Source of the DNA: a virus
Strand: one strand, 5' to 3'
Length of the DNA stretch: 24,698 bases
Virus record (IMG/VR): IMGVR_UViG_3300025543_000202
Span: 1 to 24,698 of that record
Made by a program: the position numbers and the translations under genes. Numbering within the stretch: the stretch's first letter is position 1; the number at the start of each line of letters is the position of its first letter. This document shows, piece by piece, positions 3,118 through 14,797 of the stretch. A model generated the notes under the pieces. That model ran no database searches. It was not told the DNA's origin and worked only from the letters and a program-made list of their open reading frames with translations.

Positions 3118-3267
3118 ATGGAAACACAAAGAACAACATTAAGTAAGGAAATTAAATCCTTAGAAGAACAGCTTCAAGGTGCTGTATTAAATGCAGATGC
3201 TTTTGAGCAGATTGCAATTTACAGAAGGTTAGAAATAGCAAAATCAACATTATTAAATCTAGATTAA
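3118..3267 (+). CDS. Small coiled-coil phage protein, 49 aa
   Basis: It starts at ATG 3118 behind the same AAAACAGACAGA leader as the preceding gene and stops at TAA 3265-3267. The sequence (METQRTTLSKEIKSLEEQLQ, then a second helix ending in LLNLD) has heptad-like leucines and looks like a short helical hairpin. Identical leader use supports translation. Function unknown. Confidence 0.55.
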   Translation: METQRTTLSKEIKSLEEQLQGAVLNADAFEQIAIYRRLEIAKSTLLNLD

Positions 3268-3268
3268 G

Positions 3269-3403
3269 ATGGCTATAAACTTTTCAAACCAAACAACCTC
3301 AACGATTATTCAGGAGTACGAATATAGAGTTCAAGCATTACTAAGCAACTTAGAATGTTTAGAAGCACAATTAGAAGTTATGAATCAAAATCAAATACAA
3401 TGA
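3269..3403 (+). CDS. Small helical phage protein, 44 aa
   Basis: ATG 3269 is one base after the previous stop, and the TGA at 3401-3403 overlaps the ATG of the next gene (ATGA). The protein (MAINFSNQTTSTIIQEYEYR, then VQALLSNLECLEAQLEVMNQ) is a probable coiled coil. The coupling at both ends supports expression. No function can be given. Confidence 0.5.
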   Translation: MAINFSNQTTSTIIQEYEYRVQALLSNLECLEAQLEVMNQNQIQ

Positions 3404-11350: not shown

Positions 11351-11956
11351 ATGATTAAAGCTAAAATAGAAAAGGTAAGCATTTCTTCAATAACAGAAAA
11401 TGCTGCAAATCCTAGGACAATCAACAAGCATAAGTTTCAAAAACTTGTTAATAGTGTAAATGAATTTCCTGAGATGCTATCACTTAGACCAATCATAGTC
11501 AATAAGGACAATGTTATCTTAGGTGGTAATATGCGTTACAAGGCTTGTAAGGAACTTGGACTAAAAGAAGTCTATATTATACAGGCAGCAGATTTAGATG
11601 ATAAACAAGCACAGGAATTCATCGTTAAAGACAATGTAGGTTTTGGTGAATGGGATTGGGATGTTTTAGCTAATGAATGGAAAAGCACAGACCTTGAGGA
11701 ATGGGGATTAGATGCTTGGCAGAATATGGATGATATAGAAACAAGCGATGATTTTAGTTTACCTGACGGAGACAAAGAACCTTTTCAGCAACAAACTTAC
11801 ACTTTAGCAGATGCACAGGCAGAGCAAATAAAAAACGCAATAGCAGATGTAAAAAAAACAGAGGAGTATAAATACATTGAAACCTTTGGAAATGAAAACT
11901 CAAATGGTAACGCACTTTATTTAATTATATCACAATGGGCAGAGCAAAGGAAATAA
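11351..11956 (+). CDS. ParB/Srx-fold nuclease-like protein
   Basis: The N-terminal 95 residues form a ParB-like domain: VSISSITENAANPRTIN (9-25), RPIIVNKDNVILGGNMRYKA (46-65, the GG..R..A box) and a following helix. The remainder (about 100-201) is acidic and helical. In phages such proteins often sit next to DNA methyltransferases and TerS, where the ParB domain binds a nucleotide or DNA; here the next gene is a Mom-family modifier instead. The genes overlap by 22 bases. A role as targeting or regulatory partner of the modification enzyme is an inference from this coupling. Confidence 0.8.
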   Translation: MIKAKIEKVSISSITENAANPRTINKHKFQKLVNSVNEFPEMLSLRPIIVNKDNVILGGNMRYKACKELGLKEVYIIQAADLDDKQAQEFIVKDNVGFGEWDWDVLANEWKSTDLEEWGLDAWQNMDDIETSDDFSLPDGDKEPFQQQTYTLADAQAEQIKNAIADVKKTEEYKYIETFGNENSNGNALYLIISQWAEQRK

Positions 11957-12603
11957 TAGTAAAAGTCATCCCTAGCAAAATAGCAAATGAGTTTGTAAAG
12001 AAAAATCACTATTCAGGAAAGGTTGTTAATATGAGTAATTTGCATTTTGGTTGTTTTTTAGATAATACACTTCACGGAGTTATGAGTTATGGGTCACCTA
12101 TGGATAAAAGAAATGTTTTAGGATTAGTTGATACAGGAATAAAAGATTTAAATAAAAAGTGGAATGAAATGCTAGAGTTAAACAGAATGGCTTTTGATGA
12201 TTATCTTCCTAAGTATTCTGAAAGTAGATGTATCGCTATTAGCATAAGATTAATTAAAAAAAATGCACCTCAAATAAAATGGATATTAAGTTATTCAGAT
12301 GCAACTCAATGTGGAGACGGAACGATATACAGAGCAAGTGGATTTAAATTAACACAAATAAATAAAAATGGTACAATTTATAAACTAGCATCAGGAGAGA
12401 TAGTGGCTAAACGTGGAGATAGTAAATACGACTTTAATGGAGCAAAAGCATTAAAAGGTTTTCAAAATAGATACATTTATTTAATTAACAAGTCTTCAAA
12501 AATAACTTGTCCTATTTTAAATTTTAAAGAAATAGACAAACAAGGTGCAGGAATGTATAAGGGTGAAAAAATATCCCTACAAGAACGCAGGGATATTAAT
12601 TAG
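11935..12603 (+). CDS. mom: Mom-family DNA adenine hypermodification enzyme (GNAT fold)
   Basis: A 222-aa protein with the conserved blocks of phage Mu Mom relatives: KNHYSG (23-28), SNLHFGCFLDNTLHGVMSYG (34-53) with PMDKR, ELNRMAF (81-87), SESR (95-98) and SYSDATQCGDGTIYRASGF (119-137). Mu Mom converts adenine to N6-carbamoylmethyl-adenine, protecting phage DNA against restriction. Mom belongs to the GNAT superfamily and its small-molecule donor has been unclear. The gene lies between the ParB-like gene and terS. Its 3' end contains a minus-strand terminator hairpin serving the tRNA-like gene behind it. The family call is strong, the exact modification is inferred. Confidence 0.85.
   Translation: MGRAKEIIVKVIPSKIANEFVKKNHYSGKVVNMSNLHFGCFLDNTLHGVMSYGSPMDKRNVLGLVDTGIKDLNKKWNEMLELNRMAFDDYLPKYSESRCIAISIRLIKKNAPQIKWILSYSDATQCGDGTIYRASGFKLTQINKNGTIYKLASGEIVAKRGDSKYDFNGAKALKGFQNRYIYLINKSSKITCPILNFKEIDKQGAGMYKGEKISLQERRDIN
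12565..12597 (-). terminator. Minus-strand rho-independent terminator inside the mom 3' end
   Basis: On the minus strand AATATCCCT (12597-12589) pairs perfectly with AGGGATATT (12578-12570) around a 10-base loop, and the T run continues to 12566. On the + strand the hairpin is followed by AATTAGAG and cannot terminate. It begins 6 bases after the 3' end of the tRNA-like element, which gives that element its own transcript end. Confidence 0.7.
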
Positions 12604-12673
12604 AGCGATGGGGTCAATTTGAATGCCATCTTCTAGTTGGATACTAGATGTGTTACTTTTACACTACCATCGC
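12604..12673 (-). tRNA. Atypical tRNA-Gly(UCC)-like RNA
   Basis: Read on the minus strand from 12673: acceptor GCGATGG pairs with CCATCGC (7 perfect pairs), T8 A9, D-arm GTGT-AAAAGTA-ACAC, A26, anticodon arm TCTAG-TATCCAA-CTAGA (5 perfect pairs, 7-base loop), short variable region, T-arm with loop TTCAAAT and an imperfect stem (4 pairs plus a bulged A), and discriminator U73. G1-C72, C2-G71, G3-C70, U73 and C35 C36 are the glycine identity elements; the anticodon by position is UCC. Oddities: A at 33 instead of U, no GG in the D-loop, and CTA instead of an encoded CCA. The cloverleaf is certain as base pairing. A role in translation is doubtful; a non-translational tRNA or other structured RNA is possible. 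Confidence 0.62.
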
Positions 12674-12713
12674 ATTTGAGACGACAATATACAAAAAAAA
12701 TATTTAATATAAA

Positions 12714-13070
12714 ATGAACGAAAGTAGACATATAAAAAAAGAATCACTATTAGCAGCACTAGAGCAAAGTTTAGGAGTTGTTACAGTAGCTTGTAAGAAA
12801 GCAGACATACCTAGAAGCACATATTACAAATGGCTAAATGAAGATAGTGTATTTGCAAAGGATGTTCAGGAAATAGAAAATGTAGCTTTAGATTTTGCAG
12901 AAAGCCAATTACATAAACAGATAGCAGCAGATTCAACAGCAGCTACAATATTCTACCTAAAGACAAAAGGTAAAAGACGAGGTTATGTTGAAAGACAAGA
13001 AATTACAGGTGCAGATGGAATGCCAACACATTTTGAAATAGAAATAATAAAGCGTGAAGATAAAGACTAA
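12714..13070 (+). CDS. terS: Terminase small subunit
   Basis: A 118-aa protein with an N-terminal helix-turn-helix (about 8-40; VVTVACKKADIPRSTYYKWL), a central helical oligomerisation part (VQEIENVALDFAESQLHKQI) and the common TerS phrase DSTAATIFYLKTKGKRRGYV followed by ERQEITG. It recognises the packaging site and hands DNA to TerL. Overlap of 17 bases with terL. The tRNA-like element lies 40 bases upstream on the other strand, so that region could also contain the packaging site. Confidence 0.85.
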   Translation: MNESRHIKKESLLAALEQSLGVVTVACKKADIPRSTYYKWLNEDSVFAKDVQEIENVALDFAESQLHKQIAADSTAATIFYLKTKGKRRGYVERQEITGADGMPTHFEIEIIKREDKD

Positions 13071-14208: not shown

Positions 14209-14214
14209 AAAAAA

Positions 14215-14283
14215 CTTATTAAATTTACTGTTTATTAAATAAATAATTATATATTTGTTTATCATTAATTAAAACAGAACATT
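14215..14283 (+). promoter_or_regulatory. Promoter-leader cassette, copy 3
   Basis: Upstream block TTATTAAATTT (14216-14226), CTG at the -33 place (14228-14230), 19-nt spacer, TATATTTG at 14250-14257 and the leader AAAACAGAACATT directly before ATG 14284. Layout and much of the sequence match copy 2 at 7393. Confidence 0.72.
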
Positions 14284-14433
14284 ATGATTAATATGAACAC
14301 AAACAAACAAACGATTAAAGAATTAGTAGAATTAGGATTAGAAAATACTTATACTCACGCTCCTTTATGCATTCAAAGAAGAACATTATTAGAACTTGCT
14401 GTAGCAATGAATTTGATTACACCGAAATCTTAA
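14284..14433 (+). CDS. Small helical phage protein, 49 aa
   Basis: MINMNTNKQTIKELVELGLE, then YTHAPLCIQRRTLLELAVAM and a short end. First gene behind promoter copy 3, with its AAAACAGAACATT leader. The helix pattern could be DNA-binding, but nothing is recognised. A second in-frame ATG (codon 4) is an alternative start. Confidence 0.55.
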   Translation: MINMNTNKQTIKELVELGLENTYTHAPLCIQRRTLLELAVAMNLITPKS

Positions 14434-14455
14434 TATAAATTTTAAAACAGAACAG

Positions 14456-14542
14456 ATGAAAAAATTACAGACATTAGTATTGATATTAGCACCTAGTTAT
14501 TTTATAGGTAGATTTATTGTAGGTTTAATCTTTAACATTTAA
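14456..14542 (+). CDS. Membrane mini-protein, 28 aa
   Basis: MKKLQTLVLILAPSYFIGRF then IVGLIFNI: almost wholly hydrophobic with two lysines at the start. The AAAACAGAACAG leader directly in front supports translation of this very short gene. It is inserted between terL and the tail genes. Function unknown. Confidence 0.45.
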   Translation: MKKLQTLVLILAPSYFIGRFIVGLIFNI

Positions 14543-14545
14543 GAT

Positions 14546-14671
14546 ATGGCTTGGGATGACTATTTAAATCCACACGAACAAAAAGAATATGAATGTTCAG
14601 AATGTGGTGAACCATTAGAAACAGATGCAGGTTACTGCTCAGGAACTTGTTTTAAGGCAAGTATGATATAG
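14546..14671 (+). CDS. Zinc-ribbon mini-protein, 41 aa
   Basis: The sequence contains CSECGEPLETDAGYCSGTC: two CxxC/CxxxC knuckles (C17, C20, C31, C35) that should bind one zinc ion. Such mini zinc ribbons in phages bind nucleic acid or host proteins. It starts 3 bases after the previous stop and ends ahead of the hairpin pair at 14687-14750. Confidence 0.6.
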   Translation: MAWDDYLNPHEQKEYECSECGEPLETDAGYCSGTCFKASMI

Positions 14672-14686
14672 TATTAAAAAAATATG

Positions 14687-14712
14687 ATGCTGTTAGTTGG
14701 GGAACACAGCAT
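14687..14712 (+). promoter_or_regulatory. Stable hairpin upstream of the terminator
   Basis: ATGCTGT (14687-14693) pairs perfectly with ACAGCAT (14706-14712) around a 12-base loop. It stands six bases before the terminator stem, so the transcript would end in two hairpins, perhaps protecting the 3' end. No gene occupies 14672-14797. Confidence 0.5.
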
Positions 14713-14717
14713 TGTTT

Positions 14718-14750
14718 AAAAGGGTAGTCAGAAATGGCTACCTTTTTTTT
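14718..14750 (+). terminator. Strong rho-independent terminator before the tail genes
   Basis: AAGGGTAGTCA (14720-14730) pairs with TGGCTACCTTT around a GAAA tetraloop (14731-14734), with two G-U pairs, followed by a T run to 14750. It separates the small-gene operon from the tail assembly chaperone operon. Confidence 0.88.
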
Positions 14751-14775
14751 ATTACCTTTATTGAAATAAAAAACT

Positions 14776-14797
14776 AAATTAATTACGTTATACTATT
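14776..14797 (+). promoter_or_regulatory. ACGTTATA leader motif, copy b (late tail operon)
   Basis: The 22 bases directly before ATG 14798 match 20 of 22 bases with those before ATG 22054, including the core TACGTTATA. Because the terminator ends at 14750, transcription of the tail operon has to start in 14751-14797, which makes a promoter function for this element likely. Confidence 0.55.

Follow-up and report, generated by a model that had tools for sequence, protein, structure and literature searches.

The window, that is, the whole stretch of viral DNA analysed here (24,698 nucleotides), contains a minus-strand element resembling a glycine tRNA gene between a plus-strand mom gene and the terminase genes. 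The question raised by this locus is whether the element is an RNA gene at all and, if so, which neighbour it serves and what a glycine tRNA apparently so poorly suited to the ribosome could be used for.

The element and its linkage to mom

The mom gene ends immediately before the element, and terS, then terL, follow downstream. The gene upstream of mom encodes a protein with a ParB_N domain; this gene occurs at many loci that have neither mom nor the RNA. The features discussed below are the following.

11351..11956, plus strand: ParB_N-domain protein (PF02195), upstream of mom
11935..12603, plus strand: mom, encoding a GNAT-fold DNA adenine modification enzyme of 222 aa (PF25680, identity to Mu Mom, structure model)
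12604..12673, minus strand: mom-linked tRNA-Gly-like RNA gene, with G1 at 12673, discriminator U73 at 12604 and no encoded CCA (Rfam, covariance model R1, covariation, strand test)
12667..12673, minus strand: 5' strand of the acceptor stem, GCGAUGG, pairing with 12605-12611
12605..12611, minus strand: 3' strand of the acceptor stem, CCAUCGC, partner of 12667..12673
12638..12642, minus strand: anticodon loop AUCCA (anticodon UCC; C35 and C36), 5 nt long rather than 7, on a 6-bp stem (from the fold)
12614, minus strand: bulged A in the 3' strand of the T-stem, an invariant column in the 47 rows of the alignment
12604, minus strand: discriminator U73, U in 47/47 rows
12714..13070, plus strand: terminase small subunit (weak match to the PHROGs terminase small subunit), not part of the cassette

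Read on the minus strand, the element has the sequence GCGAUGG-UA-GUGU-AAAAGUA-ACAC-A-UCUAGU-AUCCA-ACUAGA-AGAU-GGCAUUCAAAUUGACC-CCAUCGC-U. It forms seven pairs in the acceptor stem, four in the D stem and five to six in the anticodon stem. The T-stem consists of 4 bp and a bulged A, the T-loop is TTCAAAT, and the D-loop AAAAGUA has no GG. Folding of the minus strand gives z = -3.7, and no shuffle out of 200 was as stable. When a short stretch was searched, the Rfam tRNA family (RF00005) matched 12604-12673 on the minus strand with 40.2 bits (E 1.3e-7), the gathering cut-off being 29 bits. The cloverleaf proposed in an earlier note, made from the sequence alone, is thus confirmed at the same coordinates, and the departures claimed there, namely the D-loop without GG, the bulge in the T-stem and the absence of an encoded CCA, are all present. 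Detection by standard tools bore this out only in part: a whole-window Rfam scan with stricter filters gave no tRNA match at 12604-12673, and ARAGORN, applied to the window, missed the element. The R1 covariance model described below scores the element at 85.8 bits (E 4.7e-21), the window copy itself being one of its seeds.

The same note had also reported A in place of U33. This holds if the anticodon loop is read as 7 nt, but the loop is better read as the 5-nt AUCCA, closed by a U-A pair, because in most relatives C-G closes the same loop. The window element fails the criteria for a translational tRNA, that is, a 7-nt anticodon loop with U33, a 5-bp T-stem and G18G19. It is filed as tRNA-like, and not as a translational tRNA, because of the 5-nt loop on a 6-bp stem, the bulged 4-bp T-stem and the sequence of the D-loop.

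Relatives of the window were gathered by TerL (80) and by Mom (80). The covariance model R1 comprises 47 distinct copies of the element, 43 of them taken from the Mom set and the other four contributed by the window and the TerL records. With R1, exactly one element was found at each of the 80 close mom loci. This figure says more about the composition of the set than about the reliability of the model, as 43 seeds lie inside the set and numerous further copies match a seed exactly. Among the records gathered by TerL, the element is present in 5/5 of those with a close mom, counting the window, versus 0/76 of the others. One of these 76, L034, has a remote mom-like gene (26% identity).

The distant mom loci are a better test of R1 than the close set. 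When the Mom of Y8A, a Psychrobacter phage, was used as query, R1 detected an element in 65/77 of the resulting loci (48-63% identity) at E < 0.01; seven of these loci are contigs already contained in the first set. It also found the element in 40 of 71 further loci, 70 of them from bacterial genomes of many phyla and one from a plasmid. Additional D-armless elements among the distant loci were recognised by eye and by script. A structural scan alone found the element in 168/231 mom-bearing records and had no match outside mom loci in about 0.8 Mb of control strands; L036, which was matched among the controls, is in fact a mom locus. Combination of R1 with the structural scan yields 205/231 mom-bearing records, some redundant, from many phyla, and visual inspection revealed an element in about ten of the remaining 26. 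The position is restricted too: relative to the end of the mom match, 198/208 elements begin between -40 and 150 nt.

No element was found for 14/224 aligned Moms of the RNA-linked clade, mostly from Bacillota. Outside this clade, no element adjoins mom in phage Mu and 18 other sampled mom loci. The matches in L172 and L176 are ordinary-looking tRNAs situated elsewhere in the locus or upstream.

The earlier note had taken the gap between mom and terS as the setting of the element. This did not survive the comparison, as terS loci without mom lack the element. On the evidence of these genomes, the element belongs to mom and not to the terminase region. Some reservations apply to the counts. Ordinary tRNA-Gly genes are also scored by R1, at about 40-54 bits, and weak matches alone are not discriminating; the special form is told apart from ordinary tRNA-Gly by its bulge, its loop and its linkage to mom. 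Many viral loci are near-copies. Loci from metagenome-assembled genomes are possibly misbinned, and host assignment by metagenome bin is unreliable. ARAGORN misses many copies, both among the relatives and in Y8A.

Strand, pairing and glycine identity

In the 47-row alignment, 99.4% of the cells are paired, 18/21 pairs covary, and there are 280 two-sided changes versus 76 in shuffles. In the acceptor stem, five of the seven pairs have changed on both sides among the relatives, and all seven are paired in all 47 rows. Across the 28 elements encoded on the strand opposite to mom, 539 Watson-Crick pairs and 49 G-U pairs were counted, and no A-C pairs. This asymmetry shows that the RNA is the tRNA strand, which is the minus strand in the window, since the G-U pairs would be mismatches on the other strand. 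Thus neither of two outcomes that, according to the earlier note, would have spoken against an RNA gene has come out: the homologues do not lack conserved pairing, and the conservation does not favour a plus-strand structure alone, such as a packaging site.

The orientation of the element relative to mom has changed 18 times on a tree of 122 Moms, and at least 6 of these changes are forced by well-supported branches. Given such flips, the element acts in trans. A cis-regulatory element of the mom mRNA was also considered, and is ruled out by the changes of orientation.

Promoters of Bacteroidota are expected to contain a -7 box similar to TAnnTTTG. A TAnnTTTG box was observed upstream of 15/41 opposite-strand elements, versus 2.9 in shuffles (maximum 8). 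The window has the following candidate, which is near the exact TAnnTTTG consensus, yet deviates from it.

12684..12691, minus strand: putative -7 promoter element TATATTGT, whose end lies 10 nt upstream of G1

Conservation of individual positions was counted over 143 distinct elements. U73 is present in 139 of them, 137 begin with GCG, and 140 have CC in the anticodon loop, as do 47/47 seed rows; the script overlooked two of the elements with CC, where it was read by hand. The bulged A of the T-stem occurs in 127/143. With the longest possible stem taken, the anticodon loop has 3-6 nt in 140 of the 143 elements and 5-6 nt in all 47 seed rows. The GG of the D-loop is often missing, and some elements have lost the D-arm. 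CCA is encoded in 52/143; its agreement with host usage is only partial, so it was not used as proof.

The bacterial glycine identity set consists of G1-C72, C2-G71, U73, C35 and C36 (PMC9976931). It is complete in the window element and invariant in 47/47 seed rows. Thus the features read by glycyl-tRNA synthetase (GlyRS) are kept, and those needed by the ribosome and EF-Tu are changed. The earlier suggestion of an RNA that could be charged with glycine, but is not intended for ribosomal use, finds support in this comparison as far as the conserved positions, the short loops and the bulged A are concerned; the charging itself is inferred. Three elements, L202:3271-3342, L219:3275-3344 and the second copy in L286 (L286:3411-3479), have an anticodon loop without CC and retain the acceptor stem and U73. 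They may reflect relaxed identity or a different GlyRS.

Mom and its possible glycyl donor

The window Mom matches PF25680 with 151.1 bits (curated cut-off 27.1, E 4e-44); an alignment covering 84% of the query shows 31.5% identity with the Mom of phage Mu. The best PDB match of its predicted structure (pLDDT 87) is 8bv8, the Mom of phage Mu (E 6.5e-17), with which it shares the fold and the HYS, ELNR and SESR motifs. Behind Mu Mom, the nearest structures found by Foldseek are single-domain CoA-dependent GNAT acetyltransferases, and Fem-type aminoacyl-tRNA transferases were not among the closest structural neighbours in this search. The protein in 8bv8 is an inactive Mu Mom in which the second serine of SES is mutated to A (SES -> SEA). 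The matching serine of the SESR motif, S97 in the window, is invariant in 29 aligned RNA-linked Moms.

The exact CoA pyrophosphate-loop motif Q/RxxGxG/A occurs anywhere in the protein in 21/122 RNA-linked Moms. At the SESR site, a few of these Moms read RALGVA, and most are degenerate, e.g. RALSIA or RCIAIS. An argument from the absence of this motif was dropped, as the motif is degenerate rather than absent. CoA binding by Mom is not excluded, the degenerate loop region appearing neither to prove nor to exclude CoA. A C-terminal AGMY motif was found in 104/122 representative RNA-linked Moms, some of which are cut short, versus 0/20 other Moms; phage Mu mom belongs to those without a linked RNA. 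In the window Mom the motif reads GAGMYKG (residues 204-210). It is a candidate RNA contact of the RNA-linked Moms, for which there are no binding data.

According to the title of Swinton et al. 1983, as cited in PMC3874153, the product of Mu Mom is purin-6-yl glycinamide. In the open-licence papers covered, the donor in this modification is only a matter of proposal, glycyl-CoA or another acylated CoA being suggested (PMC7824862). Some GNAT-fold enzymes use aminoacyl-tRNA (PMC12945691), and one GNAT toxin, TacT, recognises Gly-tRNA at U73 and G71 (PMC9976931). In our view the element is likely to be a non-ribosomal glycine tRNA set apart for the adjoining Mom, and it would serve as the glycyl donor for the glycinamide-adenine mark. 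The glycine type and the non-ribosomal form had been recognised in the earlier interpretation; Mom as the partner, with its glycinamide product, had been overlooked.

This proposal starts from what genome comparison has established: that the RNA is conserved, which strand it represents, that it acts in trans and is linked to mom, and that both its glycine identity and its departures from translating tRNA are conserved. Transcription, charging, avoidance of EF-Tu, transfer by Mom and rearrangement are inferred, and there are no biochemical or expression data. The RNA would be transcribed, probably from its own promoter where it lies opposite to mom, and CCA would be added if not encoded. The host glycyl-tRNA synthetase would charge it with glycine, as suggested by the intact identity set (G1-C72, C2-G71, U73, C35, C36). 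The short anticodon loop, the T-stem bulge and the often absent GG of the D-loop would exclude the charged RNA from EF-Tu and the ribosome. Mom, as a GNAT-fold transferase, would take the glycyl group, perhaps via the invariant serine, and put it on N6 of adenine in phage DNA. In a rearrangement, which is inferred from chemical reasoning only, the free amine would attack at C6, and expulsion of the first nitrogen would leave N6-carbamoylmethyl-adenine (purin-6-yl glycinamide). This base, the known product of Mom, protects phage DNA from restriction.

Several observations count against a donor role. Mom can work without a linked RNA, as Mu and the 18 other loci show none; such Moms may use host Gly-tRNA or a different donor. 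Some Moms of the RNA-linked clade have no detectable element, and CC is missing from the three elements listed above. Finally, the structural neighbours of the modelled Mom are CoA-dependent GNATs and not Fem-type enzymes.

A different role next to Mom would be that of a regulator or scaffold, which controls the activity or targeting of Mom by binding and donates no amino acid. Tight linkage to mom and a conserved fold would be equally expected in this case, and phage Mu does control mom through an RNA-binding protein, Com (PMC6483171). However, such a role leaves unexplained why the glycine identity set and U73 are kept, why about a third of the elements encode CCA, and why the amino acid matches the glycinamide product of Mom; we consider it unlikely. 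An ordinary or decaying translational tRNA-Gly, either a phage helper tRNA or a leftover of an integration site, is very improbable. Phages commonly carry tRNAs, and ARAGORN calls some of the copies tRNA-Gly, but the short anticodon loop, the bulged A and the loss of the D-arm are conserved across phyla, and neither these nor the linkage to mom would be expected. The nearly complete pairing, maintained by two-sided changes, is not decay.

There is still less to recommend a replacement or decoy of the host tRNA-Gly, whose altered loop would resist anticodon-cutting defence nucleases. The anticodon loop is indeed among the most changed parts, but a loop of 5-6 nt without U33 should decode poorly, and there is no reason for the linkage to mom in particular. 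Almost no weight remains for a function on the plus strand or at the level of DNA, for instance as a terminator or as a packaging site next to terS. It would agree with the position between mom and terS in the window, whereas the excess of G-U over A-C pairs marks the tRNA strand as RNA, the element is absent from terS loci without mom, and in a Bradyrhizobium plasmid it follows mom with no terS nearby. The packaging-site and terS-linked readings are ruled out by the terminase control together with the strand test.

The non-ribosomal glycine tRNA proposed here for Mom has a partial parallel in the non-proteinogenic tRNA-Gly of S. aureus, the donors for FemX/A/B in cell wall synthesis. The two are alike in the glycine acceptor type and in non-ribosomal transfer. 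The S. aureus tRNA-Gly depart at pairs 49-65/51-63 and at G18G19, consistent with weak EF-Tu binding, and the bulged A of the mom-linked elements lies in the T-stem, where S. aureus tRNA-Gly also departs (PMC4052509). Unlike them, the mom-linked RNA has a shortened anticodon loop, a T-stem bulge and sometimes no D-arm. The S. aureus tRNA-Gly are encoded by chromosomal genes, whereas the mom-linked RNA belongs to a mobile cassette with a DNA-modifying enzyme.

FemX, DhpH-C, PacB and others combine the GNAT fold with an aminoacyl-tRNA donor, as proposed for Mom; however, a DNA substrate is not mentioned in PMC12945691, and the modelled enzymes of this kind have two GNAT domains. Toxins of the TacT type are GNATs recognising U73 and G71 of glycyl-tRNA (PMC9976931). 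The toxins acetylate glycine on host tRNA, whereas the Mom system would donate the glycyl group. The 5-carboxymethylcytosine-glycine made by CmoX/CmoY is another phage DNA base ending with glycine (PMC12783734). Unlike the proposed Mom system, CmoX/CmoY involves an ATP-dependent ligase, free glycine and cytosine, and no tRNA donor.

In its general form the proposal is one of tRNA-dependent DNA modification, in which Mom and a glycine tRNA of its own form a mobile cassette, the aminoacyl-tRNA is the direct donor, and the group added by Mu Mom comes from host Gly-tRNA. We favour this generalisation with some reserve. The tRNA and Mom are of known kinds, and what would be new is the type of system they form. 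The donor of Mom is unsettled in the literature covered, and a conserved Mom-linked glycine tRNA is a concrete, testable answer. If it is true, aminoacyl-tRNA is used for DNA modification, of which no example was found. No published link between Mom and tRNA was found in the open-licence PMC literature, the only literature covered, and priority is not established.

Individual loci

Psychrobacter phage vB_PmaS_Y8A (OQ059336) has two tandem D-armless elements with encoded CCA (L162:3162-3229 and 3234-3302) behind a Mom homologue annotated as hypothetical. No tRNA genes were reported in the genome paper (PMC10434257), and no Rfam family matched the two elements. Phage genomes thus contain RNA genes overlooked by standard tRNA finders, Y8A being an example. 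A second Y8A gene, annotated as mom, is located near the other end of the genome (L337:994-1758) and has no AGMY motif.

Tandem mom genes were observed in L113, L116, L118, L158, L215 and L225. In the first four of these loci the element is situated further downstream, behind the last mom copy, and in L215 and L225 no element was found.

In the window itself, the region following terL (14209-14797) comprises about 590 bases without a plus-strand ORF of at least 50 aa. It contains a few small ORFs, one of them with a Cys-rich pattern (14546-14671).

Chromosomal or plasmid copies occur in Bradyrhizobium (L164:3163-3228, L283, L291, L298, L299, L302, L309, L311, L320 and L323). These elements begin within the 3' end of mom or directly at it and are of the D-armless type with conserved AAGCAGGCGATG. 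In L024, where the element is at 1922-1980, the approximately 60 nt separating it from mom contain a T-loop-like stretch, GGTTCGAAC, which is perhaps the remnant of another tRNA.
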